Below are positions 10,493 to 38,533 of a DNA stretch of 64,000 nt, piece by piece; within the stretch, counting starts at the first letter, position 1; each line of letters begins with the position of its first letter. The stretch lies in NCBI RefSeq assembly GCF_016863295.1, contig NZ_BOOP01000019.1:62001-126000 (forward strand), given 5' to 3'. The notes under the pieces are model-generated. The model searched no databases. It saw nothing but the letters and a program-made list of their open reading frames with translations, and was not told the origin of the DNA. This DNA comes from Planotetraspora phitsanulokensis. Its GTDB lineage: Bacteria; Actinomycetota; Actinomycetes; Streptosporangiales; Streptosporangiaceae. The translations under genes and the position numbers were made by a program.

Positions 10493-12016
10493 ATGTCCGG
10501 CGACGGCAGCGACACGATGCTCGACGAGCTCGCCACGGGCCTGCGGATAGGCGGACGCGTGGCCGAGGGGCACGCCACTGCGCTCGACGTGACGAACCCG
10601 GCGACCGGAGAGGTGTTCATCCAGGTCATGGCCGCGACCGGCGAGGACGTCGATCGTGCGGTCCAGACGGCGGACAGGGCGTTCCGCTCCGGGGTGTGGC
10701 GGGACACGTCCATCCATCACAGAGCCCGCGTGCTCAACCGTTTCGCCGACCACATCGAGGCCAGGATCGACGAGCTGTACCGCCTCGAGACCATGACCAA
10801 CGGGCGGCCGATCACCGAGACGAGGGTCCAGATCTCCCGGCTCCCGGACTGGTACCGCTACAACGCGGCGCTGCTGCTCGCCGAACGGGGAGCCGTGTTC
10901 CCGATGGGGGACGGCTACCACTCCTACACGAGCCGGTTCCCGCTCGGGGTGGTCGGAATCCTGTCGTCCTTCAACCACCCGCTGATGATCACGTCCAAGA
11001 GCCTGGCCCCGGCGCTGGCGACGGGTAACTCCGTCGTGCTCAAGCCGTCGGAGCACACGCCGCTGACCGCCCTTCTGCTCGCCGACATCGCGGGCGAGGC
11101 CGGAATCCCGGACGGGGTGCTCAACGTCGTCCCCGGGTTCGGCCCGATCGCGGGGGCCGCCCTGGCGGCCCACCCCATGGTCGAGAAGGTGGTGTTCACG
11201 GGCGGGACCGCGCCCGGCCGGTCGATCTTCCTCGCCGCAGCGAGGCGCTTCGCCAAGGCGACGCTCGAACTCGGCGGCAAGACCCCCATCCTGGTGTTCG
11301 ACGACGCACCCGCCGACTCCGTCGCCCAGGGGGTCGCCTTCGCCGCCTTCGTCGGCGCAGGGCAGACCTGTGTCGCCGGCAGCCGGCTGCTCGTGCAGCG
11401 CGGCGCGTACGACGCGGTGGTCGAGGCGCTCGCCAAGGTCGCCGGCTCGATCCGCATCGGCGACCCGGCCGAGGAGCTCACCCAGCTCGGCCCGGTCATC
11501 TCGGCCGCGGCCAGGGATCGGATCCTCAACTACGTCCGCATCGGGCTGCACGAGGGCGCGCGCCTGGTGACGGGCGGGCGCCCGGCCGAGGTTCCCGGGC
11601 TGCCGGGCGGCTTCTTCGTCGAGCCGACCGTGCTCGCGGACGTCCGCAACGACATGCGCGTCGCGCAGGAGGAGATCTTCGGTCCCCTGGTGGTCGCCAT
11701 CCCCTTCGACGACGAGGACGAGGCCGTCTCCCTGGCCAACGACTCCTCGTACGGCCTGGGCTCGGCGGTCTGGACCCGCGATGTCGCCCGGGCGCACCGG
11801 GTGTCGGAACGGCTCGAGACCGGGATGGTCTGGGTCAACGACCACCACCGCCTGGACCCGTCCGCGCCGTGGGGCGGCGTGAAGGCGAGCGGCATCGGCC
11901 GGGAAGGCGGCCGGGAGTCGTTCGACGACTTCACGAACATCCGTGTCATCACGGTGCGGACGGCCCCCGACGACGTGGGCTGGTACAACGGCGCGAACAC
12001 CGGCAGGCTCAACTGA
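10493..12016 (+). CDS. NAD(P)-dependent aldehyde dehydrogenase
   Basis: A 507-residue ALDH-superfamily enzyme. Key motifs are the Rossmann segment KPSEHTPLTALLLADIAGEAG, the catalytic-Glu region LELGGKTP, the catalytic Cys in GAGQTCVAGS and the C-terminal EEIFGPLV. It oxidises an aldehyde to the acid using NAD(P)+. The closest pattern is that of the betaine/aromatic aldehyde dehydrogenase-like group (PWGGVKASGIGREGG), but the substrate is not determinable. The ATG is preceded by GAGGAGG. The divergent GntR regulator and operator pair suggest substrate induction. Confidence 0.92.
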   Translation: MSGDGSDTMLDELATGLRIGGRVAEGHATALDVTNPATGEVFIQVMAATGEDVDRAVQTADRAFRSGVWRDTSIHHRARVLNRFADHIEARIDELYRLETMTNGRPITETRVQISRLPDWYRYNAALLLAERGAVFPMGDGYHSYTSRFPLGVVGILSSFNHPLMITSKSLAPALATGNSVVLKPSEHTPLTALLLADIAGEAGIPDGVLNVVPGFGPIAGAALAAHPMVEKVVFTGGTAPGRSIFLAAARRFAKATLELGGKTPILVFDDAPADSVAQGVAFAAFVGAGQTCVAGSRLLVQRGAYDAVVEALAKVAGSIRIGDPAEELTQLGPVISAAARDRILNYVRIGLHEGARLVTGGRPAEVPGLPGGFFVEPTVLADVRNDMRVAQEEIFGPLVVAIPFDDEDEAVSLANDSSYGLGSAVWTRDVARAHRVSERLETGMVWVNDHHRLDPSAPWGGVKASGIGREGGRESFDDFTNIRVITVRTAPDDVGWYNGANTGRLN

Positions 12017-12025
12017 CGGCGGCCG

Positions 12026-12847
12026 TCAGACCCCCAGATGATCACGGAAGTCGTAGGAGGCCAGGCGGAAGCCGTCCTCCTGACGTTCCCAGGTGGTGAC
12101 CGAGCCGTTGCCCGCCAGGCCGGTGGACGCGATCCGCATGATCTCGTCGCCGGACAGCTCCTCGATGATCTGCCGGAGGAACAGGACGACCGCGTCGTGC
12201 GCCACGACCAGGACGCGCTGGTGGACCATGTCGCCACTGATGTCCTGCCAGACCGTGCGCAGCCGCGCCGCGACGTCCATGAACGACTCGCCGTCCGGCG
12301 GCCGGTAGCGCAGCATGCCTTCTCGCTCCTCGCGCCCCGCCTCCTCGGGGAAGCGCTCCCTGACCTCGGCGGGCGGCAGATGGTGGAGCAGGCCGCGATG
12401 GCGGTCGCGGAGCCGGGCGTCCACCCGCACACACGGCACGCGCCGTCCCGTGGCGATCAGTTCGCGCCGGGCCAGCGACCAGGTCTGCCCGGCCCGCAGG
12501 TACGGCGAGCACCACACGATGTCGGGCACACGGTCCGGGGCCGACAGCCAGCGCCCCACGTCGGCGGCCTGGCGGCGTCCGAGTCCGGTGAGCGCGATCT
12601 TCATGTCGTCGGCGGGGAAGGTCGCCGCGCGGCCGTCCCGAGACGTCGCCGCATGATCCGCCCGAGACGTCGGTGCATGATCGGCCGGGAAGGTCGCCGC
12701 ATGATCCGCAGGGGGCGTCGCAGCATGATCGGCCGGGGGCTGGGCCCAGGCGGCGTTCGCCGTGCTCTGACCGTGCCGCAGCGCGCGGAGGACGACGGGA
12801 CCGGACGATGCCGCGTGGCCGCACGGTGAGACGGAGACGGTCACCAC
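12026..12847 (-). CDS. Histidine phosphatase family protein with an inserted octapeptide repeat
   Basis: A 273-residue member of the phosphoglycerate-mutase-like superfamily. The catalytic LRALRHGQSTAN (His25) is near the N-terminus, CSPYLRAGQTW lies mid-protein, the Glu-containing PPDGESFMDVAARL follows, and the second His is in VLVVAHDAVVLFL. Unusually, residues 37-76, directly after the RHG loop, are five tandem 8-residue units (mostly [PSF][PR]ADHAAT) absent from normal family members. The chosen start is GTG with no strong ribosome-binding site. The gene converges tightly (9 bp) with the aldehyde dehydrogenase. Substrate unknown. Confidence 0.85.
   Translation of the reverse strand: MVTVSVSPCGHAASSGPVVLRALRHGQSTANAAWAQPPADHAATPPADHAATFPADHAPTSRADHAATSRDGRAATFPADDMKIALTGLGRRQAADVGRWLSAPDRVPDIVWCSPYLRAGQTWSLARRELIATGRRVPCVRVDARLRDRHRGLLHHLPPAEVRERFPEEAGREEREGMLRYRPPDGESFMDVAARLRTVWQDISGDMVHQRVLVVAHDAVVLFLRQIIEELSGDEIMRIASTGLAGNGSVTTWERQEDGFRLASYDFRDHLGV
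12620..12739 (-). repeat. Coding minisatellite: five 24-bp units in the histidine phosphatase gene
   Basis: Five in-frame 24-bp units encode [PSF][PR]ADHAAT-type octapeptides. Four contain GCATGATC on the plus strand at exactly 24-bp spacing (12651, 12675, 12699, 12723). Asp-His is always GAT-CAT rather than the GC-preferred GAC-CAC, which points to recent DNA-level expansion. GCATGATC is also the core of the dispersed intergenic repeat of this window. Confidence 0.8.
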
Positions 12848-13057
12848 TCGACGCTACGTGGGGCCGGGCCGAACATCCAGCCCCAGCCCGTCCGCAGGTC
12901 GTTCACCAGGGACTACGGCACCGCGACGGAGGGGCGTCGTCAACCACGCGTCAACATTCCCCGCGTCCGCGTAGGGATCGCGTCTTGATCACGAATTCGC
13001 CGCCACCCAGGATTTAGCGTCCTTTTTGTAACCATTGGGGTGATCCTGGAGGAGTCC

Positions 13058-13561
13058 ATGGCGGCAGAGGAGGCCGAATCCCCGGCCAGGCGCGCGAAAG
13101 TCGTCGACGACGTCGACCTGCGTCTACTGCGTGCGTTGTGGATGGACGGGCGTGCCCGGGTCCGGGAGCTCGCCCGCGAACTCGCGCTCGCCGACAGCGC
13201 GGTGTCGGTACGGCTGCGCCGCCTGCGTGAACGGGGTGTTCTCGCGGGCGTACACGCCGACTTCGATCCCGCACTGCTCGGCCTCACGACTCAGGCCCTC
13301 GTCGGCGTCAGGCTCGCCCCGCACACGTCGTCCCACGTCTACGAAGGACGGCTGCGCACCATGCGATCGGTGCTTGGCGCAGTCAGCCTCGTCGGGGACT
13401 ACGACCTGGAAGTCCACCTCGCCTGCCGCGACATGGTCGATCTCGAGCGTGCCGTCACCGAACTGCGCGCAGCCGGCGCCGAAACCACCCACACCCAACT
13501 CATCGCACGAACCGTCGTGGGCCTGGGGCAGGCCCTGCTCACCGAGGAGGAGCCCGCATGA
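13058..13561 (+). CDS. Lrp/AsnC family transcriptional regulator
   Basis: A 167-residue regulator. It has an N-terminal HTH (VDLRLLRALWMDGRARVREL, then ADSAVSVRLRRLRERGVL) and a C-terminal ligand-sensing RAM domain (LVGVRLAPHTSS, VGDYDLEVHLACRDM). The ATG at 13058 has GGAGGAG 5-11 bp upstream, better than the in-frame GTG at 13040. Its TGA overlaps the ATG of the decarboxylase gene by 4 bp, so the two are translationally coupled. It probably senses an amino acid that is a substrate or product of that enzyme. Confidence 0.92.
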   Translation: MAAEEAESPARRAKVVDDVDLRLLRALWMDGRARVRELARELALADSAVSVRLRRLRERGVLAGVHADFDPALLGLTTQALVGVRLAPHTSSHVYEGRLRTMRSVLGAVSLVGDYDLEVHLACRDMVDLERAVTELRAAGAETTHTQLIARTVVGLGQALLTEEEPA

Positions 13562-14871
13562 CTGTCATGACCGAGACCGCTCATGGTCCGTGGTCGGCCA
13601 CCACCCGCTTCCGGCACGACGGGACTGCCACCGTCGGCAACGTGTCGCTCATGGAGATCGTCCACCGGTTCGGCACGCCGCTCTACGTCATCGACGAGAC
13701 CGACGTCCGCCTGCGGGCGCGCGCCTACCGGGCCGCGCTGCCCTCGGCGGAGATCGCCTACGCCGCCAAGGCGTTCCTGTGCCGCGCGATGGCGAGCTGG
13801 CTGAGCAGCGAAGGCCTGAGCCTCGACGTGTGCTCGGCGGGCGAGCTGGCCGTCGCGCGTTCCGTCGGCTTCCCCGCTTCGAAGATCATTTTTCATGGCA
13901 ACGCCAAGACGCCGCACGAGCTCCACCTGGCCGTGGAGCAGCGTGTGGGACGGATCGTCGTGGACAGCGTGGACGAGATCCACCGGCTGGCCGCGCTGGT
14001 CCCCGCCGGCTACCGCCAGAAAGTCCTGATCAGGGTCATCCCGGACATCGAGGCCGGGGAGAGCGCAGCGGTCCGGACCGGAGGGGAGAACCAGAAGTTC
14101 GGCCTGTCCGTCGCGACCGGAGGCGCGGGAGACGCGGTGAGCCGGGTGCTCAGGCAGCCGCGCCTGCAACTGGTCGGCCTCCACTGCCACCTCGGATCCC
14201 AGATCACCTCGGTCGAGCCGTTCGAGAGGGCCGCCCGTGCCATGATCGAGCATCTCGCGGGGGTCTGGAAGACCCATGGCGTGGCCCTGCCCCAACTCGA
14301 CCTCGGCGGCGGCCACGGCATCGCCTACCGGCCGGGAGACTCCCGGCTGAACCTGGACGCGTTCGCCGCCCGGGTGACCGACGCGGTCGAGGAACGCGCC
14401 GCCGGACTCGGGCTGCCCGTCCCCCGCCTGACCATCGAGCCCGGCCGTGCGATCGCGGGAACGGCCGGCGTCACGCTCTACCGGGTGATCTCCGTCAAGA
14501 AGGGCCTCGGGCACACCTACGTGGCGGTCGACGGAGGCATGAGCGACAACCCCCGCCCTGCCCTGTACGGCTCTCGCTACGAGGTCAAGCTCATCGGCCG
14601 CGCGTCCCACGAGGGCGACCGCGAGGTGACCGTGGTCGGGCACCACTGCGAGGCGGGCGACGTGATCGCGGAGGACGTGCCGCTGCCGGCCGACCTCCAC
14701 CCGGGCGACGTCCTCGCCGTCGCCGCCACGGGCGCCTACCACCACTCCATGGCGTCCACGTACAACCTCACCTGCCGCCCGCCGGTGGTGGCCGTCGGCC
14801 AGAGCAAGGCCAGGCTGGTCGTCCGCCGCGAAAGCCTGGAGGACCTGACGCGCAGGGACGTCGGCCTCTGA
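13558..14871 (+). CDS. PLP-dependent diaminopimelate decarboxylase-type enzyme (LysA-like)
   Basis: A 437-residue fold-type III decarboxylase. The PLP lysine is Lys71 in EIAYAAKAFLC. Other LysA hallmarks are HCHLGSQ, DLGGGHGIAY (phosphate-binding Gly loop), EPGRAIAG, VDGGMSDNPRPALYGSRY, and HHCEAGDVI with the active-site Cys. The family converts meso-diaminopimelate to lysine. Coupling to a dedicated Lrp regulator rather than to argS/hom genes suggests this is not the housekeeping copy; it may act on a related D-amino acid or be an Lrp-controlled paralogue (inference). A strong terminator follows. Confidence 0.88.
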   Translation: MTVMTETAHGPWSATTRFRHDGTATVGNVSLMEIVHRFGTPLYVIDETDVRLRARAYRAALPSAEIAYAAKAFLCRAMASWLSSEGLSLDVCSAGELAVARSVGFPASKIIFHGNAKTPHELHLAVEQRVGRIVVDSVDEIHRLAALVPAGYRQKVLIRVIPDIEAGESAAVRTGGENQKFGLSVATGGAGDAVSRVLRQPRLQLVGLHCHLGSQITSVEPFERAARAMIEHLAGVWKTHGVALPQLDLGGGHGIAYRPGDSRLNLDAFAARVTDAVEERAAGLGLPVPRLTIEPGRAIAGTAGVTLYRVISVKKGLGHTYVAVDGGMSDNPRPALYGSRYEVKLIGRASHEGDREVTVVGHHCEAGDVIAEDVPLPADLHPGDVLAVAATGAYHHSMASTYNLTCRPPVVAVGQSKARLVVRRESLEDLTRRDVGL

Positions 14872-14924
14872 TCCCCACGAACCGGTCAGCCGGTTCGGGA
14901 TGGCGAGTCATCCGTACGTAGACC

Positions 14925-14971
14925 ACGTCCTGGCCGATGTCACAGTGGCACCCGGCCAGGACGTCGCTTTT
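14925..14971 (+). terminator. Rho-independent terminator after the Lrp/decarboxylase operon
   Basis: ACGTCCTGGCC (14925-14935) pairs perfectly with GGCCAGGACGT (14954-14964), followed by CGCTTTT. The stem is 11 bp and the loop 18 nt. Confidence 0.8.
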
Positions 14972-14975
14972 GCGC

Positions 14976-15134
14976 GTGATCATGCACAGGCTCGCGGACG
15001 TGGGCCGTGAACCGGGCCGACCTGGTTGGTGATCATGCACAGATCCGCTCACATGCCACGTGACCTCGCGAAACCTTCTTCGTGATCATGCACGCGAGCC
15101 GGTACGGCGGCGCATGGCGAGCTCTGCCAGGTCG
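14976..15134 (+). repeat. Cluster A of the GTGATCATGCAC repeat family (3 units, period 53 bp)
   Basis: Exact GTGATCATGCAC occurs at 14976, 15029 and 15082, at exactly 53-bp intervals. Downstream positions are only partly conserved (RGRTCCG-like block; GACCTG about 34-40 bp in). The cluster lies between convergent genes, just past a terminator. See clusters at 18514 and 20957. Confidence 0.8.
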
Positions 15135-15141
15135 CGCCGGC

Positions 15142-15221
15142 GCCGCAGTTCCCCGTCGTTTCCACAGCCCCCAGGGTTTCCCCAACTCCCCAGGGCTGCC
15201 GCAGTTCTCGGGTTTCCACAG
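15142..15221. repeat. Degenerate ~55-bp direct repeat
   Basis: GCCGCAGTTC recurs at 15142 and 15198, and GTTTCCACAG at 15158 and 15212, with CCCCAGGGTTTCC-like sequence between. This is a two-copy imperfect repeat immediately after cluster A, in the 477-bp gap before the gene ending at 15349. No gene is seen in that gap. Confidence 0.5.
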
Positions 15222-15348
15222 AATCCGGGAGACGACCACACCGCAATAGGCCTCATAGCCCGGTGACACAAGGGACGTCCCCGCGGCCCGCGCGCGAGCT
15301 CTCAGATAGGCCGGTTGCAGAGACTCCCGCGCCTGTCCGCGCGAGTTC

Positions 15349-15864
15349 TCAGACGGGACGCCGGACTCTGGCCGGCACCGGCGAGCGTGACGCCGTCCGG
15401 GAGCGACGTTCACCGGAAAGCATGGCGTCAGGCAGCGTGGCGTCGAGGATCATGGCGGCGGCGGGAAGCAGCGAGTCGTCAGGGGCGATCTCGATGACCC
15501 TCGCGGCGGCGGCGCGGCGGGCGATCCGGATCCGCCCCCAGAGCGTCCCGGCCATGACGGCCGCGACGAGGACGCCGAGGCGCAACAGATCGGGCCAGCC
15601 GGCGAGCCGGAGCTCACCCTCGTGGTTCACCAGGAAGCCGGTGGCCACCAGCCAGCCCATGACGGCGGTGGCCAGGGCCGCGAGAGGATCGGCCGTCCGG
15701 GCGGCGAACACCGTGAGAACGACGGCGAGAACGGCGATACGTCCTGTGGTCTCCCCCGGGGAGAAGATCGCGGTCGCCAGCAGGCAGCCCCCCACGACCA
15801 CGGCGAATCCCGCCGCGACCAGCAACTCGGTGTGCCGGGGACCTGCCGGACCTACGATCCTCAT
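15349..15864 (-). CDS. Small membrane protein with a DUF4118-like four-helix region
   Basis: About 171 residues. Three to four membrane segments occupy the first 115 residues (LLVAAGFAVVVGGCLLATAIF; IAVLAVVLTVFAAR; ALATAVMGWLVATGFLV; LLRLGVLVAAVMAGTLWG), followed by a polar tail ending in Arg/Pro-rich sequence. NHEGELRLAGWPDLLRLGVLV resembles the DUF4118 sensor region of KdpD-like kinases. No kinase domain follows, so it is either a stand-alone membrane protein or a truncated sensor. An alternative start is at 15876. It runs convergent to the decarboxylase gene. Confidence 0.6.
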   Translation of the reverse strand: MRIVGPAGPRHTELLVAAGFAVVVGGCLLATAIFSPGETTGRIAVLAVVLTVFAARTADPLAALATAVMGWLVATGFLVNHEGELRLAGWPDLLRLGVLVAAVMAGTLWGRIRIARRAAAARVIEIAPDDSLLPAAAMILDATLPDAMLSGERRSRTASRSPVPARVRRPV

Positions 15865-16117
15865 GTGTCCAGCCAAGTACAGACAAGCTGGCAGATCGTC
15901 GGTCTTGACGCACTTCCTACGTGTCCAGGCCGGATATTGATGAAATCCCTATCATCCGGGATTCGATGTTGACCTTCCTCAGACGTCGACTCGGGTGCGG
16001 CGCCGTCCGTTGTTCGAGCACGTCGGCTGAGGCCCGGGTCGCCGTCTGCTCGGCGCTTGCCCGCCGGGCAGCCACGAGTGGCATGCTGGACGGACGGCGA
16101 TCACGAGGAGATCATTG

Positions 16118-16405
16118 ATGACCCACCCTCCCAGCACGCAGCCCGCACCCCGGCGCACCCCTCTCAGCGCGGAGGAGAAGGCCCGGAGCGAGGTGAACTT
16201 CGCCCCCCTCGTCGCCGAGACGCTCGTCGCCAAAGGGCGGTTCCGAGTGACCGCCGAGACGCCGGACATGGTGGAGATGTTCCAGGGAGTCGCCCGGAAG
16301 GTGGGCGACCTGCTCCAGCGACCTGTCGTCAGCTACGCCAACGGCCGGGACATCGTGATCACCTTCGCCCAGACGGACACCCCCGGCCTGACCGGCCGAG
16401 AGTGA
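16118..16405 (+). CDS. Small hypothetical protein
   Basis: A 95-residue soluble protein beginning with a Pro/Thr-rich stretch, then a compact alpha/beta-looking region (VNFAPLVAETLVAKGRFRV, then MVEMFQGVARKVGDLLQRPV, then SYANGRDIVITFAQTD). The ATG at 16118 has GAGGAG 8-13 bp upstream. No family recognised and no cysteines. It is transcribed toward the convergent permease gene and has its own likely promoter in the 250-bp gap upstream, which holds nothing else identifiable. Confidence 0.65.
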   Translation: MTHPPSTQPAPRRTPLSAEEKARSEVNFAPLVAETLVAKGRFRVTAETPDMVEMFQGVARKVGDLLQRPVVSYANGRDIVITFAQTDTPGLTGRE

Positions 16406-16474
16406 CCACTTCGTCCGTGTCCCGAGCTGACGGCCGGGGCCCCGACGTCCGGTGAAACCCTTCCGGCCACAGCG

Positions 16475-18397
16475 CTAGCCGACATGAACATGCGGCCGTC
16501 GCTCGACGTCGGGCTCGGCCTGGCGCAGCACCTCACGGGTCAGGGGCGGCACGTCCCCGCCGCCGAAGAGCAGGTAACGGAGCATCGCGGCGATCGGGTT
16601 GCCCTCGGTCCAGTGGAAGTAGATGTGCGGCACCTGTCCCGTGCGGTCGCGCAGGTAGAGAAGAAGGGCGGCCAGCGCGTTCGGCACCGTCGAGCTCTCG
16701 ATGCGCAGGATGCGGTGGCCGTACAGTTCCTCGCCGCTGACCCGGAGCTCGGTCTCGAACTCCGAGGCGTCCGGCACGGTCACCTCGACGAACATGATCG
16801 GTTCCGAGCTGGGCAGCCGATGGTTCAGCCACTGCTCGCGGCGCTTGTCGGTGTACTCGCTCTGGTCGCGCTGGTTCGGCTCGTTCGCGATCAGGTGAAC
16901 CTCGCCACATGCCTCGACGACGAACTTCTCCGCGAGCGGGTCGAGATGGACCTCCGTCACCCGCAACTCGGTGGAGCGCGTGGCACGCGAGACGATGGAG
17001 GTCACGATGATCGCCACGATGAAGAAGAACGCGATCTTCACGCCGTCCGGCCGTTCGATCACGTTGGCCACCAGCGTGTAGACGAGCACGACGCCGATCA
17101 CGGCGAACGCGCCCATCAGCTTCTTCTGCCCGGCGCGGGCGGCGGCGACGGCCACCGCGACGGCCGCGGAGAGGATCAGCACGAGCACGCCCGTGGCGTA
17201 CGCGCCGCCCTGGGCCTCGACGTCGGCGTGGAAGATGATCGTGATGGCGAACGCGATCGCGGTGAACACCAGGACCAGGGGCCGGACGGCCCGGGTCCAG
17301 TCGGGGGCCATGCCGTACCGGGGCAGGTAGCGGGGCACCAGGTTGATCAGGCCCGCCATCGCCGACGCCCCGGCGAACCACAGGATCGCGATCGTGCTGA
17401 CGTCGTAGAGCGTCCCGAAGTAGTTGCCCAGGTATTCGTGGGCGACATAGGCCAGGGCACGGCCGGAGGCCTTGCCCCCCTCATGGAACTCCTTCTCCGG
17501 GATCAGCACGCTCGTCGCGAAGCTACTGAAGATCAGGAAGACGCTCATGATCAGCGCGGCGACGGTCAGCATGCGCTTGGTCCCGGCGATCCGGCCCTTC
17601 AGATCCCCCTTGACCAGCGGCATCACCGCCGCCCCCGTCTCGAACCCGGACATGCCGAGGGCCAGTTTCGGCATCACCAGCAACGAGACGGCGATCATCG
17701 CGAGCGGACTGCTGTGGTCGGTGGTCAGGGCCGCCTTCCAGTTCACGACCAGATCGGGCTGCTCCAGAACATGTGTGAGCGCCGTGACCACGACCACCGC
17801 GTTGAGCGCCAGGTAGACGCCGACCAGCACCACCGCGATGCCGATGGCCTCCTTGAAGCCCTTCAGGAACACCGCGCTCAGCAACGTCAGCAGGCCGAGG
17901 GTGACGAGGACCTGATGGCCGTCGAACAGCCGGGGAACGAACGGGTTCTCCAGGATGTGCGCGGTGGCGTCGGCCGCCGACAGGGTCATCGTGATGACGA
18001 AGTCCGTCGCGGCGAACCCGAGCAGGACCAGCACGAACAGCTTGCCCCACCACTGCGGGGCCAGCCGTTCCAGCATGGCGATCGACCCCTGACCGTACGG
18101 GCTCTCCGCCGCCACCCGCCGATAGACGGGCAACGCCCCGAACAAGGTCAGCAGTACGAGGAAGAGCGTGGCGATCGGGGACAGCGCGCCCGCCGCGAGC
18201 GCGGCGATGCCCGGCTGATAACCCAGCGTCGAGAAGTAGTCGACGCCGGTCAGGCACATCACCTGCCACCACGGATGCCGTACGTGCGGCGCCTCGGGAC
18301 CGTGCGGCCCCACAGCCTTCAGGTCCTCCTGCTGGAGCCCGTCGAGCAGCCACGTCCGCAGATCGCCCGCCACCGGGGACCGCACTAACCCGGCCAC
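16475..18397 (-). CDS. APC-superfamily permease, KUP/KimA-like
   Basis: A 640-residue transporter with about 12 membrane segments in residues 45-480 and a long C-terminal cytoplasmic domain (about 160 residues). The opening [24 protein letters not shown] followed by GSIAMLERL resembles the K+-transporting APC group (KUP, KimA), and many homologues are annotated 'amino acid transporter'. The C-terminal region ([33 protein letters not shown]-like order) looks like a soluble regulatory domain. A potassium role is inference. The GTG start has GGGGAGGTG upstream. Repeat cluster B lies in its 5' region. Confidence 0.75.
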
Positions 18398-18896
18398 TCG
18401 GTCACCTCCCCGTCAAATGCGCATAAAGCCGAATGCACACTACTAAGGCCGGAGAGGGTTGTTACCGCCACAGGGCGTCAAGAAAACGTATATATCGCCA
18501 CCTCCCTCCCGGCGTGATCACGCCCCCCCTTTGGGGTGATCATGCACAGATTCGGCAACACACGGCCCACACCCGCGTGATCATGCACAAGAAACACCTC
18601 GCGAGCAGGCCGTTCACATTTCGTGATCATGCACGGGTTCGGCAACGCACGTCCCGACCTGGGCATTCGCATTTTCGTGATCACGCATTGCAACCGGCCC
18701 GACAATCACGCGCCATTACATGATCACGAAACGAATCACGGCAGGTCGGAGCGGCATTGACAGAATCCGTGCATGATCACGCAAGACGTTCGCGCAGCTC
18801 ATCCGGCCAACGCCCGAACGTGAGCATGATCACGCGCGAGAAAGGGCGCGAGAGGTGAGGCCCGGGGCGCAATGAGCCCCCGAACCCCCCGTACCC
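18398..18896. other. 499-bp non-coding interval filled by repeat cluster B
   Basis: No credible gene. The stretch between the permease start and the DUF2786 stop is largely occupied by eight GTGATCATGCAC-type units, five forward and three reverse, plus an AT-rich promoter-like segment at about 18480-18500 (AAAACGTATATATCG). Confidence 0.65.
18514..18833. repeat. Cluster B of the GTGATCATGCAC repeat family (8 units, inverted halves)
   Basis: Forward units start at 18514 (variant GTGATCACGCCC), 18536, 18577, 18623 and 18677 (variant). Reverse-oriented units occupy 18716-18727 (variant), 18769-18780 and 18822-18833 (one mismatch). Intervals are 22, 41, 46 and 54 bp in the forward half and 53 and 53 bp in the reverse half. 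Secondary blocks RGRTTCGGC and GASCTG recur at fixed offsets. The two halves face each other around 18700. Confidence 0.8.
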
Positions 18897-20126
18897 TCAG
18901 GCGATCTTGTCGCGGGCGTGAAGGGTGGCCAGGTCGGCGGCGGCCCTCCCGGACACCCAGCCCTCCCGGTCGTTGACCGACATGACACCGGTCCGCGACA
19001 GGCGGGGGAACAGCACGGTGACGGCCTGGTCCACCGCCAATTCCCGAGCGGCCAGCACCGGCAGAAGATCACTTCCCGCCTCGGCCACGGCCTGCCGTAC
19101 CGCCTCACCCGAAGCCGCTCGGAGCCGCTCCCCGATGCGCTGGGCGTACGCCGCGAGGAACGACTGGCGGAACGACCGGGTACGCGACCGGCCGGCGAGG
19201 TCACGGCGGGCGCCGGCCTGGACCATCCCCGAGGTCGCCTGCACCAGCAACGATGTGAACAACAACTCCACCGCGTCGAGGTCGGGGTCGAACCCGAGCA
19301 CCGTGGAGAACCCGAGGTCCTTGCTCCAGACGGCGCGGCACCGGTTGGCCGTGGCCACGACGTCGAGCAGGATCGCCTTGGGCTTCTCGTAAGGGGGATC
19401 GATTCCCACCCGGCGGCCGGTCGGTTCCTCCGCGCCGCCCGGCTCGGCGGCAAGCATCGCGGCGTCGATGCTGTGCTTGGCCATCAACGACTGCGCCGCC
19501 GACGTGAAGGTCTCCGCCTCCGCGGGGAACTCGGTGGACTCGGCCTTGGCCAGCAGGGCGCGGATGCGGGCGAGGGTCCGCTCGCCCGCCGCCCGGCCCG
19601 AGACGTGTACGGCACGGCGGGCCATGCCGGGCAGCGGGCAGAGCCGCTCCAGCCGGGGAAGCATGGTCAGCACCGACAGGACCTCGACGGCGCGGGTCAC
19701 CATCGCGAGCCGGTCGCCCTTCTCGCGCAGGATCTCCTCGTCGGCCTCCCACCACACGTGGGCGTCGAGCGCGGAAAGCTGCGCCAGCCACCGGTCGGCC
19801 ACGGTCGCGGCGGCGTACGCCCGCATCTCCTCGGCCATCGCGTCGACGGCGAGTTGCACGTGCTCGCCGCCGAATGCGCGGCGAATCCTCCGGGCGACGT
19901 CCGCGGGCTGCCAGCCACCGTGCCACGCCGCGGTGACGGTCTGCCGCAGACCGGACAGCAGCGTACGGTCGACCACCCGCTCCCACCCCGCATGATCGGA
20001 CCGATCGGCCAGAACCTCCACCGACCGGCGGAACCGGGGCTCGTCCCAGTGCCGCCAGGTGCGCAGCGCCTCGGAGACGAGCGCCTCGGCCTTGCGGGTC
20101 ATCGCGGCTGCATCCATCTGGCCCAT
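18897..20126 (-). CDS. DUF2786 domain-containing protein
   Basis: A 409-residue soluble protein. The DUF2786 signature lies near residues 195-235: ERTLARIRALLAKAESTEF, then PAEAETFTSAAQSLMAKHSID. Flanking regions are helical and uncharacterised. The biochemical role of DUF2786 is not established. The start at 20126 (MGQMDAAAM) is preceded by GAGGGGG; an in-frame ATG further out (20213) lies in poorly coding sequence. It is divergent from the HD-domain gene with a 185-bp shared promoter region, and its 3' flank is repeat cluster B. Confidence 0.8.
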   Translation of the reverse strand: MGQMDAAAMTRKAEALVSEALRTWRHWDEPRFRRSVEVLADRSDHAGWERVVDRTLLSGLRQTVTAAWHGGWQPADVARRIRRAFGGEHVQLAVDAMAEEMRAYAAATVADRWLAQLSALDAHVWWEADEEILREKGDRLAMVTRAVEVLSVLTMLPRLERLCPLPGMARRAVHVSGRAAGERTLARIRALLAKAESTEFPAEAETFTSAAQSLMAKHSIDAAMLAAEPGGAEEPTGRRVGIDPPYEKPKAILLDVVATANRCRAVWSKDLGFSTVLGFDPDLDAVELLFTSLLVQATSGMVQAGARRDLAGRSRTRSFRQSFLAAYAQRIGERLRAASGEAVRQAVAEAGSDLLPVLAARELAVDQAVTVLFPRLSRTGVMSVNDREGWVSGRAAADLATLHARDKIA

Positions 20127-20311
20127 CGGCCGACCCCCTCGAACGTCCGGAGACCGCATCCTCGCAGACGCCACCGACGGTCTCGGGTGTGCGCCGCAAG
20201 CCGGGCAGATCATGTCCTACCAGGCGTTCTTGTCTTTTTGGGGAGTCAATTCGGTCGAACTCCAGGGCATGTTCCAGCCAGAACCGCAGGCGGGCTAAGG
20301 AGATCGTTGTC

Positions 20312-20950
20312 ATGTCGGAGACCATCGCGGGCGTCGCCGTACCCGACTCGCAACTCGCCGCCGAGGCGACCGAACTCGTCCGGGACGCGGCGCCTCCCCT
20401 GCTCTATCACCACTCCCGGCGGGTCTACCTCTTCGGGATGTTGCAGGGCAGGCGACTCGGGCTGTCGGCCGACGCTGAGTTGCTGTACATCGGCGCGATG
20501 TTCCACGACCTGGGGCTGACCGAGACCTACCGCCGCACCGACCAGCGGTTCGAGCTCGACGGGGCCGACGAGGCTCGCCGGTTCCTCGACTCCCACGGCG
20601 TGCCCGCGGCCGACGTCCGCAGGGTTTGGGAGGCGATCGCCCTGCACACCACGCCGGAGATCCCGTACCGGCTGGATCCCGAGATCGCCCTGGTGACAGC
20701 GGGTGTGGAGACGGACGTCCTCGGCATCGGGTACGGCGATCTCGACCCCGGCGACGTCGCTGCGGTCGTCGCGGCCCACCCGCGTCCCGACTTCAAGCGC
20801 CAGATCCTGGCGGCGTTCACCAACGGGTTCAAGGATCGGCCGGCGTCCACGTTCGGCACGGTCAACGCGGACGTGCTCGAGCACTTCGTCCCGGGCTTCC
20901 GCCACATCGACTTCGTCGACGTCATCCGGAATTCCGCCTGGCCCGAGTGA
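20312..20950 (+). CDS. HD domain-containing phosphohydrolase-like protein
   Basis: A 212-residue protein with the HD metal-binding pattern: LLYHHSRRVYLFG (first His), MFHDLGLTE (the HD pair), EAIALHTTPEIPYRL (third His) and a later VTAGVETDVLG Asp. This arrangement resembles the cyanamide hydratase/HD-hydrolase subgroup rather than HD-GYP. The ATG has AAGGAGAT upstream. It is divergent from DUF2786 and followed at once by an inverted GTGATCATGCAC hairpin that probably acts as terminator. Substrate unknown. Confidence 0.85.
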   Translation: MSETIAGVAVPDSQLAAEATELVRDAAPPLLYHHSRRVYLFGMLQGRRLGLSADAELLYIGAMFHDLGLTETYRRTDQRFELDGADEARRFLDSHGVPAADVRRVWEAIALHTTPEIPYRLDPEIALVTAGVETDVLGIGYGDLDPGDVAAVVAAHPRPDFKRQILAAFTNGFKDRPASTFGTVNADVLEHFVPGFRHIDFVDVIRNSAWPE

Positions 20951-20956
20951 CCCGCT

Positions 20957-20991
20957 GTGATCATGCACGGCCCCCGCACGTGCATGATCAC
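20957..20991. terminator. Hairpin formed by two inverted repeat units after the HD gene
   Basis: GTGATCATGCACG (20957-20969) and CGTGCATGATCAC (20979-20991) are perfect 13-bp inverted copies with a 9-nt loop. The hairpin starts 6 bp after the HD-domain stop codon. Built from two units of the dispersed repeat, it could terminate transcription. Confidence 0.55.
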
Positions 20992-21097
20992 GGGGTCGGT
21001 CTTCCCAGCTCAGCGCGTCATCTTCCGAATCCATGCATGATCACGCCGTGTATCTCCGCAGCTCAACGCACACTTCGCCGAACCTGTGCATGATCAC
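20957..21097. repeat. Cluster C of the GTGATCATGCAC repeat family (4 units)
   Basis: One forward unit (20957-20968) faces three reverse units ending at 20991, 21044 (variant ATGCATGATCAC) and 21097, at exact 53-bp spacing. The intervening 41 bp of the reverse units align to each other (CAGCTCA and CCGAAYC blocks conserved). It fills the gap between the convergent HD and lipoprotein genes. Confidence 0.8.
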
Positions 21098-21128
21098 GCT
21101 GGGGTTGGCGGCTCAATCACCTTGAAGG

Positions 21129-21767
21129 TCAGGCGGCGCCTGGGGCTAGGGCCGCTCCGCCGCCGTATCCCTCCGCTCGGCACTGGTTCTGGATCTTCTC
21201 GATGTCCACGCCCTCTCCGGGGATGCTGTCGTACGTCCACCCGATCGCGTTGGGGTCGGAACCCGTGGCCGGCGTGATGTGCACCTTGAACCCGTGCCGC
21301 TTCAGGCACGCCACCTCTTTACGCACGTCGTCGGCGTAGTGGGGGTTCGTCTTGGGGCTGAACTCCGGCGGCATGAGCGGCATCTTGTTCACGCAGGCCT
21401 TCCTCGCGGCCTCGTACGCCTTCACTTCCGCCTTGGTGGGCTCGCCGCTCGTCTTGGTGGGCGATCCATGGTCCGTCAGACAGTCGGCGTAGGCCTTCCG
21501 GTACATCGCCACGTCCTCCGCGGTGCTGTCCAGGCGCAACTGGGGCCGCTTGGACTCCGAAGAGGAATCGGAAGAAGAAGAGGAATCTCCCGCCGGATCG
21601 GCCTTCGCCGTACCGGACGTACTGGCGGGAGACTCGGTCACCAGGGATGCGACGCCGTCGTTCTGCGTCGCCGCCTTGCCGTCCGAGCCCCCGCACGCGG
21701 TGAGCCAGCAACAACCGACGAGCATCACGGCGGCGAGCCGGACGGTGCGATCAGTGAGGGAAATCAT
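21129..21767 (-). CDS. Secreted lipoprotein associated with a MacB-like exporter
   Basis: About 212 residues. The signal ends in a lipobox LTAC-GGS, then an Asn/Ser/Thr-rich linker with a run of Ser (SSSSSDSSSES) leads to a small globular domain with three conserved-looking Cys (YADCLTDHG, ARKACVNKMP, EVACLKRHGF). Related lipoproteins commonly accompany actinobacterial ABC exporter/two-component loci, as here. The start at 21767 is preferred over ATG 21779, whose GGAG is too close. OmpR-type direct repeats lie 25-57 bp upstream, indicating control by the RR encoded at 25151. Confidence 0.78.
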   Translation of the reverse strand: MISLTDRTVRLAAVMLVGCCWLTACGGSDGKAATQNDGVASLVTESPASTSGTAKADPAGDSSSSSDSSSESKRPQLRLDSTAEDVAMYRKAYADCLTDHGSPTKTSGEPTKAEVKAYEAARKACVNKMPLMPPEFSPKTNPHYADDVRKEVACLKRHGFKVHITPATGSDPNAIGWTYDSIPGEGVDIEKIQNQCRAEGYGGGAALAPGAA

Positions 21768-21791
21768 GGGGCCGAGCATCTCCAGGAGTTG

Positions 21792-21824
21792 TGAGGAACC
21801 TGTCAGGGAGCGATGAGGTTCCCG
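21792..21824. promoter_or_regulatory. OmpR-type direct repeats upstream of the lipoprotein gene
   Basis: Three 11-bp units in phase: TGAGGAACCTG (21792), TCAGGGAGCGA (21803), TGAGGTTCCCG (21814). The first two share 11 exact bases (AACCTGTCAGG) with the repeat at 25061 in front of the response regulator. An 11-bp period is typical of tandem OmpR/PhoB-family binding. Confidence 0.6.
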
Positions 21825-21855
21825 TCGTGGTCAGAGAGCGAAAAATCACGAAAAA

Positions 21856-23067
21856 TCACGGCGCGGAAAGAGCGTCAGTCGGGGTCAGGCGGGACGCGCG
21901 GATCGAGGGGTAGACCCCGGCCACCATGCCGACCACCACGGCCCCGCCGATGCCGCCGAAGGCCGCAGCCGGCGGGATCACCGGCGGCCACCCCTGGTAC
22001 GCCGAGTAGCCCACGGCCACCGCCACCCCCAGCAGGGTGCCGATCACACCTCCCAGCCCGGAGAGCGCGACCGACTCGGTGAGGAACTGGGCCCGGATGT
22101 GGCCGCGGGTGGCGCCCAGCGCTCGGCGCAGGCCGATCTCACGGCGGCGTTCCAGGACCGAGACCACCATGGTGTTGGCCACGCCGATGCCGCCGACCAG
22201 CAGCGCGACGCCCGCGAGCCCCAGGAACAGCGCCGAGAACGTCGTCTCCGTCACGCGCTTGGCCGCGAGCGCGTCCGAGGGACGGCTGACCACGACCAGG
22301 TCGGGAGTCTCCGGGTGGAGGGTGGCGGGCAGGACGTCCCGCACGTCCTCCAGAGCGTCCTCCCTGGCCTGCACGTAGACGACCGTCGGGTGCCCGTCGA
22401 AGTGCAGGTACCTCCGTGCGGCCTCCCAGCCGACCAGAACCGAGCGCTCCAGCTCGGGAGCGAGCGGCATCGGCCGCAGAATGCCGATCACGGTGAACCA
22501 GTGGTCGCCGACGAACACCTGCGGGGGCTCCTGGCCGGGCACCAGCTCGTTGACCCCGAGACGTGACGCGGCCTCATAGCCGAGGACGACGGTCGGGAAC
22601 CTGTCGGTCGAGGTGGTGAGGAATCGTCCGTACTGGACCGAGCCGTTGACCGCGGCGAGCAGGTTGACGCGGCTCGCGAGCACGCTGATGCCGGCGGCGT
22701 CGCCGGCGTCCACCTTGTCCGACCGGGCCACGACGGCGTGCGTGTTGGCGACCGCGCTCGCCACGGTGACGGGGGCGATGCGGGCGGCCATGCCGTCGGC
22801 CGAATCGGGCAGCAGGACCGGGGGGTCCTGGTTGGGCATGGGTTCCGCGCGCAACATGTTGGTGCCGAGCGCGGACAACTCGTTCATCAGGGCCTTCTGG
22901 CTGGAGGCCGGGATCCCCATCACGATGATCAGGGTGGCGATGCCGATCGAGATGCCCAGCGCGGACAGCGCGGCTCGCATCTTCCTGGTGCGGATGCCCA
23001 GGAGCCCGAGCCGCAGGATGTCTCCCGGGGCGAGACGGACGGGATCGGTCCGGGTGGCCCGCCTCAT
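21856..23067 (-). CDS. MacB/FtsX-type ABC transporter permease
   Basis: A 403-residue permease. N-terminal membrane segment LSALGISIGIATLIIVMGI follows the RTRKMRAAL motif. A large extracytoplasmic MacB_PCD domain spans about 50-270, then three C-terminal membrane segments (ALFLGLAGVALLVGGIGVANTM; GLGGVIGTLLGVAVAVGYSA; GGIGGAVVVGMVAGVYPS). ERRREIGLRRALGATRGHI is the FtsX/MacB signature. It acts with the ATPase and adaptor encoded upstream in the operon to export an unknown molecule or transmit conformational signals. A 32-bp tandem repeat sits at its start codon. Confidence 0.9.
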   Translation of the reverse strand: MRRATRTDPVRLAPGDILRLGLLGIRTRKMRAALSALGISIGIATLIIVMGIPASSQKALMNELSALGTNMLRAEPMPNQDPPVLLPDSADGMAARIAPVTVASAVANTHAVVARSDKVDAGDAAGISVLASRVNLLAAVNGSVQYGRFLTTSTDRFPTVVLGYEAASRLGVNELVPGQEPPQVFVGDHWFTVIGILRPMPLAPELERSVLVGWEAARRYLHFDGHPTVVYVQAREDALEDVRDVLPATLHPETPDLVVVSRPSDALAAKRVTETTFSALFLGLAGVALLVGGIGVANTMVVSVLERRREIGLRRALGATRGHIRAQFLTESVALSGLGGVIGTLLGVAVAVGYSAYQGWPPVIPPAAAFGGIGGAVVVGMVAGVYPSIRASRLTPTDALSAP

Positions 23068-23139
23068 GACCTGCCTCCCGGAGGCGTGACCCGCCTCATG
23101 ACATACCTCCTGGAGGCGTGACCCGCCTCATGACCTGCC
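23058..23139 (-). repeat. 32-bp tandem repeat duplicating the ATPase/permease stop-start junction
   Basis: Units at 23058-23089 and 23090-23121 differ at four positions, with a partial third at 23122-23139. Each carries an overlapping stop/start TCATGA. The result is three in-line ATGs, with an 11-codon mini-ORF (23099 to 23064) between the ATPase stop and the permease start, both linked by ATGA overlaps. Confidence 0.75.
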
Positions 23140-23821
23140 CCGAACGGGTGTCGCGCACGATCCGGCCGTCGAGGATCTCCACCCGCCGGGGCACCCGTGC
23201 CGCGATGTCCCTGTCATGGGTGACGATCGCGATCGTGGTGCCCTCGGCGTTCAGCTTGATCAGCAGTTCGAGTACGGCCTGGCCGTTGGCCGTGTCGAGG
23301 GCGCCCGTGGGCTCGTCCGCGAGGACCAGCGCCGGTTCGTTGACCAGGGCCCGCGCGATGGCGACCCGCTGTCTCTCCCCGCCGGAGAGCTGATGGGGCA
23401 GATGGCCGACCCGATGGGCCAGCCCCACCCGCGCCAACGCCTCAAGCGCCATGGGGCGGCGCCTGCGGTGCGGCACCCCGGCGTAGAGAAGCCCGGTGGC
23501 CACGTTCTCGGCGGCGCTCAGCCCGTCCGTCAGGTGGAACTGCTGGAAGACGAAGCCCAGGAGCCTGCCCCGCAGCGCGGAAAGCCTCCGGTCGCTCAGG
23601 GCGGCGACGTCCTGGCCGCCGATCTCCACGGTGCCGCTGGTCGGCAGGTCGAGCGTGCCCATGATGTTCAACAGCGTGGACTTGCCCGATCCCGACGGCC
23701 CGACGATCGCGAGCAGCTCACCCTCGTCGATCAGCAGCGAGACGTCGTCGAGAGCGGTGACGCCACCGGGATGAAGCTTGCTGGCCCGATCGACGCGCAT
23801 GACGGGGACCCCAGGGGTCAT
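23096..23821 (-). CDS. MacB-type ABC transporter ATP-binding protein
   Basis: A 241-residue ATPase: Walker [11 protein letters not shown]-loop FVFQQFHL, signature [15 protein letters not shown], Walker [10 protein letters not shown] (with the family's ALDT) and switch His in IVTHDRD. LolD/MacB-like subfamily. The ATG overlaps the stop of the adaptor gene (ATGA at 23818-23821). The C-terminal [11 protein letters not shown] tail is the product of the 32-bp tandem repeat; the ancestral protein probably ended at SGQV or just after it. Confidence 0.93.
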
Positions 23822-24933
23822 GAGCTCGTCACCACTTCGAGGCCCTCGGTGACGCCCTTGCCGGTGACCTCCACCATTCCCCTGACGAACATCCCGGTCT
23901 CCGCCGCGACCAGCTTCCCGTCGGGGAGTTGGAGGGCGTAGCCGCCCTCGCGCAGGGCCAGCAGCGCACCGACGGGAACGGCGAGCACACCTCGCCGGAC
24001 CTGGGAGGTGAAGGTCACCTCGACGCCCGCGGCGTCCAGTGCCTTCACGTCGGCGGCCTTGCGCGGGGTGACGGTGATGTTGAGCTGGGCCGTGTTCTGG
24101 CCGGAGCCGTCCGTCACGTCCTGAACGGTCCTCCCGATCGCCGTGACCTGCCCGACGATCTTCTTGCCGCTGGGGAGCACGATGCTCACGCGGGCCTTCG
24201 GGCGGATGGTGCCCACGTCGGTGGCGTCCACCGGCACGGTCACGACCTTGGCCGTCGGGGTGACCGTGATCAGCTCTTCCGCGACGGGGTCGCCGAGCTG
24301 GGCCTTCACGGACGCGACCCGCGACGGTCCGGAGAGCACGACGACCTGGCCGACGTCCAGCGTGCCGGTCGGCTGCAGTCCGGCGGCCACCTGCCACTGC
24401 TTGAGCGCCGACTTGAGAGAGGCGGTGAAGACGTCACCCGGCACGGAGGGCTTCCCCGTGACCGGCGTCTGGGGCGGCAGGTAGCCGATGGCGTACCCGA
24501 GGGCCCGCAGGTTGTTCGCCACCACGGTCACGTCACGGCCCCGGGTCCCCACCTTGTCCAGCTTGCGGAACAGCGGAGTGTCCCCCACGAACGCCGGCAC
24601 GGGGTGATCGTCCACCCAGTAGAGCGGCTTGCCCCTGACCACCGTGACCCCCGCCTTCGGCAGCCGGGTGACCAGTCCGGTGCCCGCGCCTCGCACCGAG
24701 CGTTCGGCGCCGAAGCCCAGAGTGCCCGGGAGGGTACGGGTGTCCGAGAGATCGGTCTTGACCACGGAGGCTGTCGCCACCGGAGCCTTGGCCGCCCCGG
24801 TCTTCTCAGGCTCGCCCCCGTGGCCGATCACGACGACCGCGGCCCCGCCGGCGGCCACGATCGCGAGCAGGGCGACCGCTCCCAGGAGGACCCGCTTCCT
24901 CCCCCGCCGCGGCTCGTCGTCACTTTCCGCCAC
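23818..24933 (-). CDS. Membrane-anchored HlyD-like adaptor with peptidoglycan-binding-like domain
   Basis: A 371-residue protein. After a short basic N-terminus comes one membrane anchor ([23 protein letters not shown]), a coil-like region, a PG_binding_1-like helical segment ([17 protein letters not shown]..., [19 protein letters not shown]), then barrel-sandwich/beta segments ([29 protein letters not shown]). This is the actinobacterial version of the periplasmic adaptor of MacAB-type exporters, predicted outside the cytoplasmic membrane. GTG start with GGAGGCC upstream. It is first gene of the operon adaptor-ATPase-permease. Confidence 0.85.
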
Positions 24934-38092: not shown

Positions 38093-38533
38093 TTGGACGA
38101 CTGGGCCAAGGTGATCGACTCGATCGCCGGGCTGGTGGATGCAATCGCCTGGCCATTAGCCGTCATCGTCGCCGTGTGGCTGATCATGCGCCGGCACCGC
38201 AACGCGATAGAGCGCCTGATCGACCGCATCACGAAAGTGGGCTTCCCGGGAGGCGAGATCGACCTCTCCGGAGTAATCGCCGGCAAAGAGGCCCAGGTGG
38301 AGGAACTAGAGCAAGAGGTTGTGGCACCTGACCGCGACGAAGAGGAGCGGCGGGAGGCGGCGCGCCGACTGGCCGCAGAAGCGGAAGAGCTGGGCCGAAT
38401 CCGAGAAATCCGCACCGTGTATGTGGACCCCTCGCGACTGGACGCCCTAAAAACGTATCGCTTCCTGGCAGCCCTCTCTCAGTCGTCTAGCGACGATCCG
38501 CCCGCCGAAGCCCCAGTCGGGAAGCCTTCGTAG
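38093..38533 (+). CDS. Membrane-anchored coiled-coil hypothetical protein
   Basis: A 146-residue protein: one N-terminal membrane segment (IAWPLAVIVAVWLIM, about residues 18-33), a basic stop-transfer RRHRNAIERLIDRIT, and a long charged helix likely to be coiled coil (EELEQEVVAPDRDEEERREAARRL region). The C-terminal part ends with an Ala/Pro/Ser tail. No family assigned. The start is a weak TTG without a clear ribosome-binding site, so the true N-terminus is uncertain. First gene inside the putative selC island. Confidence 0.6.
   Translation: MDDWAKVIDSIAGLVDAIAWPLAVIVAVWLIMRRHRNAIERLIDRITKVGFPGGEIDLSGVIAGKEAQVEELEQEVVAPDRDEEERREAARRLAAEAEELGRIREIRTVYVDPSRLDALKTYRFLAALSQSSSDDPPAEAPVGKPS

Follow-up and report, generated by a model that had tools for sequence, protein, structure and literature searches.

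Repeat units in the window

The stretch analysed here (the window) comprises 64,000 nucleotides of the Planotetraspora phitsanulokensis genome (contig NZ_BOOP01000019.1, positions 62,001 to 126,000), a 9.17-Mb genome in 95 contigs. Between its genes lie three clusters of a repeat whose units begin with a 12-bp sequence, the head, and follow each other typically with a period of 53 bp. Cluster 1 is situated behind a decarboxylase gene, cluster 2 between two genes of the same strand, and cluster 3 between the 3′ ends of an HD-domain gene and a convergent gene (Table 1). The 15 units described in an earlier note on this DNA were all found in place, and the intervals between heads are those claimed there: exactly 53 bp in six cases, with further intervals of 22, 41, 46 and 54 bp. 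The confinement of the 15 units to three clusters likewise stands, but the claim that heads occur nowhere else between genes does not: two single heads with two mismatches (12673–12684 and 38180–38191) lie outside the genes predicted by our home-made caller, although the former falls within a longer open reading frame (ORF) at 12026–12847. With up to two mismatches allowed, 26 head matches were found in the window against 3.7 expected and a maximum of 9 among 100 shuffles.

The genome-wide search proposed in the earlier note gave 459 heads with at most one mismatch in the window genome and 8 for the reversed control. Four congeners contain 997, 1,016, 1,038 and 1,194 heads at the same threshold (controls 4–7). 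These per-genome counts are complete, and the individual places treated below are those among the matches listed, where all named relatives carrying such arrays belong to Planotetraspora (Streptosporangiaceae).

Structure, spacing and polarity of the units

The consensus was built from 496 exact-head units, not deduplicated, in 89 of 119 loci (at least 119 loci in the scan). It consists of a C, the head GTGATCATGCAC, the block ARRTTCG, a variable stretch, the block YGACCTG from +32, a weak AC.C block at +44 and, preceding the next head, a final C. Both secondary blocks that had been read from the window alone are therefore real and are located at +12 to +18 and +32 to +38. The GTAG tag is absent from the consensus.

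In the spacing, gene-position and fold tallies given here and below, orthologs of several species are counted separately and exact duplicates are removed. Among the Planotetraspora loci outside the window genome, 709 of 732 same-strand spacings deviate by no more than 1 bp from a multiple of 53 bp, so the period is found at other loci and in relatives. Where forward and reverse blocks meet, they face inward in 96 cases and outward in one. Facing blocks are separated at the centre by 19–197 bp, most often by 23 bp (18 of 96). The arrangement, with 732 same-strand neighbours, 96 facing and 1 diverging, is not the regular alternation of orientation seen in bacterial interspersed mosaic elements (BIMEs).

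Position relative to genes

The exact 12-mer is enriched between genes both in the window (10 of 10 copies wholly intergenic) and in two relatives (53 of 56 in 400 kb and 46 of 50 in 382 kb), as the earlier note required of a true family. Wholly coding copies number 0 of 10 in the window and 0 of 56 and 1 of 50 in the relatives, each of which has three more at gene edges. With one mismatch allowed, two contiguous stretches from relatives contain 76 and 88 heads, of which 69 and 78, respectively, are wholly intergenic. Genes were called with a home-made codon-usage caller, and the intergenic classes therefore contain errors. The loci L041–L159 were retrieved by a triple-head pattern (at least 119 matching loci), a selection that inflates their intergenic fractions.

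An unselected contiguous sample of relatives contains 28 clusters, two of which consist of a single head: 11 lie between convergent genes, 17 between co-directional genes and none between divergent genes, although divergent regions account for 99 of the 314 regions measuring 100 bp or more in that sample. A larger, partly array-selected sample gives head-bearing against all intergenic regions as 53 vs 122 for convergent, 72 vs 377 for tandem and 9 vs 231 for divergent pairs, the minimum region length being 30 bp for the numerators and 100 bp for the denominators. The median distance from the stop codon to the first head is 17 bp; the TGA of the head doubles as the stop codon of the gene in 35 of 144 sense blocks.

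Conservation between species

Arrays are found at the same gene junctions from one species to another, and the changes between them involve whole 53-bp units. In pairwise comparisons of orthologous places heads were present in 356 cases, absent in 88 and partial in 23. Locus k_G1:323111-324213 was excluded owing to a 1.1-kb gap that may represent an overlooked gene; species k was left out at m_G2:60121-60509, where its alignment is non-orthologous. The latter locus is the only G002 query used, since most others duplicate G001 loci; the letter s unites the P. silvatica loci and the G003 stretches, which are assumed to come from one species.

When units are defined in a third species, the heads of two others differ at 83 of 1,800 sites (4.6%), the first spacer at 539 of 1,804 (30%) and the upstream sequence at 519 of 1,457 (36%). 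The ARRTTCG and YGACCTG blocks together differ between orthologs at 19% of sites. The best-kept positions of the unit are −1 to 9, 16–18, 33, 34, 38 and 52. Spacing is kept as well: among 119 orthologous tandem intervals 100 are unchanged, 14 differ by less than a unit and 5 by whole units (two further intervals, 30 vs 21 bp, were tallied separately). The spacers of these intervals differ at 26.6% of sites and the mostly coding flanks at 9.3%. Selection thus acts on the head and on the spacing.

At clearly orthologous units, the core head differs at 5 of 340 sites and the spacer at 167 of 802 in one-sided arrays (8 loci), and the head at 28 of 810 and the spacer at 450 of 1,939 in facing arrays (9 loci). 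One-sided arrays have no pairing partner and show the same contrast; base pairing is therefore not what preserves the head.

Seven of the 14 sub-unit changes are the irregular intervals of cluster 2 in the window. Those of 41, 46 and 54 bp correspond to 53 bp in relatives (two comparisons each), as does that of 22 bp (one comparison). To judge from the aligned sequences, the irregular intervals of the window look like decay. The window species has core-head mismatches at 7 of 250 sites, against 3 of 300, 1 of 310 and 1 of 210 in the others, and 13 heads absent or gapped against 5, 3 and 5, both being small samples; in G004 eight heads are absent and none is comparable. The arrays of the window species thus seem to have begun losing units and spacing.

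Folding of the arrays

No covariation indicating base pairing was detected within units or between neighbouring ones (531 non-redundant units, top z of 4.2 among 4,884 position pairs), and an RNA fold inside the unit was rejected for this reason. The Rfam search of window positions 12000–24000 gave no match at the gathering score.

Folding energies were compared with home-made dinucleotide shuffles, 12 per 3′ end and 8 per region. Convergent 3′ ends adjoining arrays have no local hairpin (mean best free energy −17.0, shuffled −15.9; 70 of 90 ends), whereas array-free ones have it (−24.5 vs −19.8; 70 of 138 ends). Tandem 3′ ends behave likewise, with −16.0 vs −15.4 beside arrays and −22.2 vs −18.3 in their absence (the four 3′-end samples were 70/90, 70/138, 63/63 and 70/306). 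When whole regions are scanned, facing arrays reach −25.8 vs −20.8 (34 convergent regions) and array-free convergent regions −28.0 vs −22.5. Among convergent regions, the best local fold lies below −22 in 65% of those with facing arrays (n = 34), 58% of those with one-sided arrays (n = 19) and 88% of the array-free ones (n = 40; region samples were 34/34, 19/19, 40/61, 28/28, 34/34, 40/287 and 40/206). The mean global fold z of facing-array regions is −10.9 for convergent and −9.7 for tandem regions, as expected of any long inverted repeat.

The predicted folds of array centres were inspected for about half of 88 non-redundant ones. The innermost heads pair as a hairpin; some centres are ordinary GC-rich hairpins, and in some the head-like arms of the hairpin have drifted together with their complementarity retained. 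The idea that arrays replace terminators is weakened by these folds, the hairpin missing next to the stop codon being often located in the centre of facing arrays, where it does not arise from the tandem units. Probably the tandem units are DNA sites and the centre of the array is a hairpin terminator. The central hairpin of cluster 3 is identical in four Planotetraspora species except for one base in one of them. On visual inspection, the junction of cluster 1 is array-free in G002 (P. mira) and G003 and has a GC-rich hairpin there.

Distribution in actinobacteria

Of 341 genomes of the family, 14 contain a pair of heads 53 bp apart (at most two mismatches): all five of the genus of the window, G062, five of the 15 of genus g65, and G054, G037 and G086. 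Genus g65 and the last three partly use the dialect GTGATCTTGCA. In a phylum-wide sample only one of 396 genomes, the window's own, has such a pair, and a looser core pair at 53 bp was found in 7 of 296 genomes of the class, where some single matches may be due to chance.

Amplification of the head is patchy and extends to other actinobacterial families. Most of 393 genomes of the class contain fewer than 12 copies of GTGATCWTGCA, but seven contain more than 40 (G402 414, G808 328, G000 291, G933 108, G849 90, G120 78 and G758 45), the highest count outside these seven being 22. In 200 kb of G808, a member of another family, no intergenic 9-mer is more strongly enriched than the head, and 30 of 33 heads are intergenic. 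The tails that follow the common head differ by lineage, as do the periods, which are 22 bp in G758, 34, 35 and 39 bp in G808, and most commonly 37 bp in G402 (16 of 48 spacings below 200 bp, counted over 100 listed forward places). The period of five helical turns put forward in the earlier note consequently holds for Planotetraspora and for genus g65 of the same family; in other families the head recurs at other periods.

Several of these genomes show peculiarities of their own. In G758 (contig C9, L278), which belongs to another actinobacterial family, 18 near-identical 22-bp head copies stand in tandem 43 bp behind a forward-strand gene. In genus g65 (G168 and G120, L230–L249) the gene-proximal units of arrays with 53-bp period form a subtype of their own, GTGATCTTGTAGTTTGTCGCA, whose second block is strongly conserved. 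A second dispersed intergenic motif, cagaatgctg ... cagcattc, accompanies some head arrays in G402 (contig C1, L250–L259). On contig C1 of G808 some 260 kb (about 337,700 to 598,900) are free of exact heads among the matches listed, and elsewhere a cluster occurs every few tens of kb.

Possible function of the arrays

The earlier note had left three explanations side by side: repeated protein binding in a fixed phase, a terminator or REP-like (repetitive extragenic palindromic) element, and a non-autonomous mobile repeat. This interpretation is partly supported, and the first explanation fits best, because head and spacing are kept while spacers drift, and this is so in one-sided arrays too. 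Since the head is kept in place together with the spacing, requires no pairing partner, stands at gene ends and is reused by different lineages, recognition by a protein explains the data best; the polar, inward-facing units round a hairpin suggest a boundary or a backstop of transcription. We consider the chances about even that the units are polar, phased sites for a putative DNA-binding protein that insulates gene ends. Each 53-bp unit would be a polar site for one such sequence-specific protein, which would read the head (C)GTGATCATGC, the TCG roughly one helical turn beyond it and, some three turns away, the GA..(C).G block. As 53 bp equal five turns, adjacent proteins would lie on one face of the DNA and might bind cooperatively. 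The arrays would extend inward from the stop codon with their tails facing, often round a central hairpin. The protein-coated stretch would mark and insulate the gene ends, backing up hairpin terminators and keeping the transcription of neighbouring or convergent genes apart, and it may in addition serve as a nucleoid anchor.

Several observations weigh against this assignment. The AC.C block at +44 has not been conserved, orthologs differing at 175 of 511 sites (34%). In Planotetraspora sp. A-T 1434 (loci L220–L229) the arrays are looser, close intervals being 53 bp in 29 of 48 cases, 52 bp in 10 and 54 bp in 3. The periods found elsewhere are not all whole helical turns, so cooperativity on one face of the DNA cannot be general. 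Between tandem genes, the outermost block is directed away from a gene end in 59 cases and away from a gene start in 47, which makes the link to the direction of transcription loose rather than strict. By our home-made gene calls, divergent gene pairs enclose 14 blocks. Hairpins in array centres mean that arrays accompany hairpins rather than merely replace them. The patchy spread of the common head also fits a spreading selfish element. Finally, the protein itself, its cooperative binding and its insulating effect are what we infer from the patterns described above.

The selfish alternative can be put more exactly: a REP- or MITE-like (miniature inverted-repeat transposable element) palindrome consisting of a facing head pair would have been inserted by a transposase other than RAYT (the REP-associated tyrosine transposase) and extended by tandem slippage, its position merely reflecting where insertion is tolerated. 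One head with lineage-specific tails in different families, the patchiness within a genus (328 copies in G808 vs 1 in its congener G772), the intergenic location with its convergent and tandem bias, the 35 sense blocks that provide the stop codon of the gene, as if inserted at its end, and the 23-bp peak of the centre distance would all follow from it. However, decaying copies would not be expected to show selection confined to the head, and the copies remain at orthologous places, where they turn over by whole tandem units; a mobile repeat is for this reason unsupported as a present-day explanation, and we regard the palindrome scenario as unlikely, albeit the strongest of the rivals. A Y1 transposase (RAYT, PF01797) was not found in G000–G003, G062, G163, G168, G808, G758, G402, G849 and G933, that is, in most repeat-rich genomes, and RAYT was rejected as the mobiliser on these grounds. 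PF01797 matches occur in 7 of 22 genomes, both repeat-bearing (G004, G120 and G165) and repeat-poor (G068, G099, G139 and G166). No viral contig has two exact 11-bp heads at a 53- or 22-bp period, which speaks against mobility and led us to reject a viral origin. It is still less probable that the arrays act as RNA, being transcribed and terminating or protecting mRNA ends with the central hairpin. Their place right behind stop codons, the central hairpins, some with drifted yet complementary head-like arms, and the folding of facing-array regions far better than shuffles (a property of any long inverted repeat) agree with such a role; the equal conservation of heads in one-sided arrays, the lack of covariation within units, the near balance of antisense and sense blocks in tandem regions (47 vs 59) and the empty Rfam search do not. 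Least probable, and in our opinion very improbable, is a DNA uptake sequence (DUS) read by the competence machinery as in Neisseria. Neisseria DUS are mostly intergenic, often form inverted-repeat terminators and in part lie within genes (PMC2397512), and they have dialects (PMC3630211). The Planotetraspora head is similarly a short core of 10–12 bp, present in hundreds to about 1,200 copies, mostly intergenic, with inverted pairs behind genes and dialects in related genera (GTGATCATGCAC and GTGATCTTGCA). In contrast to DUS, it is practically absent from genes (see the wholly coding counts above) and stands in phased tandem arrays; a fixed period and a polarity rule serve no evident purpose in uptake, and one head recurs in different families.

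The comparison with known repeats leads to a mixed result. REP and BIME elements have hundreds of copies, are extragenic, lie downstream of coding regions, mostly between convergent or co-directional genes, and often form facing pairs, and CGTC-REPs have no dedicated transposase (PMC3733652 and PMC2817692; the word "actinobacteria" is absent from the main text of both). The Planotetraspora family shares the copy number, the extragenic location at gene ends and the facing pairs. It differs in that it has no GTAG or CGTC tag, its single units are not palindromic, they follow each other directly in tandem at a fixed period where BIME units alternate, and selection is confined to the head and short blocks. 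Of the terminator or REP-like reading the location thus stands, behind stop codons and often round a hairpin, while the GTAG tag and, in most repeat-rich genomes, the REP transposase are missing. The family is an extragenic repeat in the wide sense, with high copy number and an extragenic position at convergent and tandem gene ends, and it lacks the tested marks of RAYT-REPs and BIMEs.

The ArgR site upstream of argG in Streptomyces coelicolor, the ARG box, reads CTTTGCATGGTCATGCGTAA (PMC5839063) and has by eye 9 of 11 bases in common with CGTGATCATGC, which can serve as a lead only. ARG boxes regulate promoters as adjacent 20-bp boxes, whereas the head lacks symmetry and is kept in that asymmetric form. 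Among the part of the matching open PubMed Central papers considered, which contain short versions of the head, none deals with an actinobacterial repeat by its title or the start of its abstract. A CRP site was also considered, since GTG-N6-CAC resembles the head, and was rejected on the CRP spacing of N8. Mycobacterial interspersed repetitive units (MIRU) are tandem intergenic units of about 50–100 bp in actinobacteria that can overlap stop codons; they occupy only a few dozen loci and are not known to share sequence with the Planotetraspora repeat.

Returning to protein-coated gene ends, a broader proposal is possible, though doubtful: a DNA-binding protein common to different families may recognise GTGATCATGC and coat polar arrays, phased at 53, 37 or 22 bp according to lineage, behind stop codons and so form inward-facing nucleoprotein boundaries that separate convergent or neighbouring genes, the gene-end insulators of actinobacteria. 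In the usual view, gene ends in bacteria depend on hairpins or Rho. If the proposal is true, the arrays would be a bacterial counterpart of boundary elements, hundreds of loci in one genome would mark gene ends by a conserved polar and periodic protein platform, and the role of extragenic repeats in chromosome organisation would become directly testable. The common head with its differing tails and periods across families may make the hidden protein findable by comparison of gene content, and the window species, with its apparently decaying arrays, offers a natural comparison.

Features of the window

The repeat units, the hairpins and the adjoining genes are collected in Table 1.

Table 1. 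Repeat units, hairpins and neighbouring genes at the three clusters of the window.
Feature	Positions	Strand	Remarks
Decarboxylase gene, 3′ end adjoins cluster 1	13558–14871	+	Orn/DAP/Arg decarboxylase domains PF02784, PF00278
Hairpin between stop codon and cluster 1	14925–14964		arms 12 bp, 100% complementary; loop 16 nt
Cluster 1, unit 1	14976–15028	+	exact head; next head at 53 bp
Cluster 1, unit 2	15029–15081	+	exact head; next head at 53 bp
Cluster 1, unit 3	15082–15134	+	exact head; tail degenerate
Convergent gene, far side of cluster 1	15349–15876	−	DUF4118, under Pfam cut-off
Gene, 5′ end adjoins forward units of cluster 2	16475–18397	−	no Pfam match
Cluster 2, degenerate head	18514–18525	+	2 mismatches
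Cluster 2, unit	18536–18576	+	exact head; 41 bp to next (53 in two relatives)
Cluster 2, unit	18577–18622	+	exact head; 46 bp to next (53 in two relatives)
Cluster 2, unit	18623–18676	+	exact head; 54 bp to next (53 in two relatives)
Cluster 2, innermost forward head	18677–18688	+	2 mismatches
Cluster 2, innermost reverse head	18716–18727	−	2 mismatches; faces 18677–18688
Cluster 2, reverse unit	18728–18780	−	exact head 18769–18780
Cluster 2, reverse unit	18781–18833	−	head 18822–18833, 1 mismatch; spacing 53 bp
DUF2786/DUF7168 gene, 3′ end adjoins reverse units of cluster 2	18897–20126	−	ORF extends to 20213
HD-domain gene, 3′ end adjoins cluster 3	20312–20950	+	PF01966
Cluster 3, head, left hairpin arm	20957–20968	+	exact; 6 bp past stop codon of HD-domain gene
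Cluster 3, central hairpin	20957–20991		facing heads, 23 bp apart
Cluster 3, head, right hairpin arm	20980–20991	−	exact
Cluster 3, reverse unit	20992–21044	−	head 21033–21044, 1 mismatch
Cluster 3, reverse unit	21045–21097	−	exact head 21086–21097
Convergent gene, 3′ end adjoins other side of cluster 3	21129–21779	−	no Pfam match

The ORF at 12026–12847 (reverse strand) encodes a predicted protein with an ADHAAT-like tandem peptide repeat near its start, followed, by eye, by a phosphatase-type domain.

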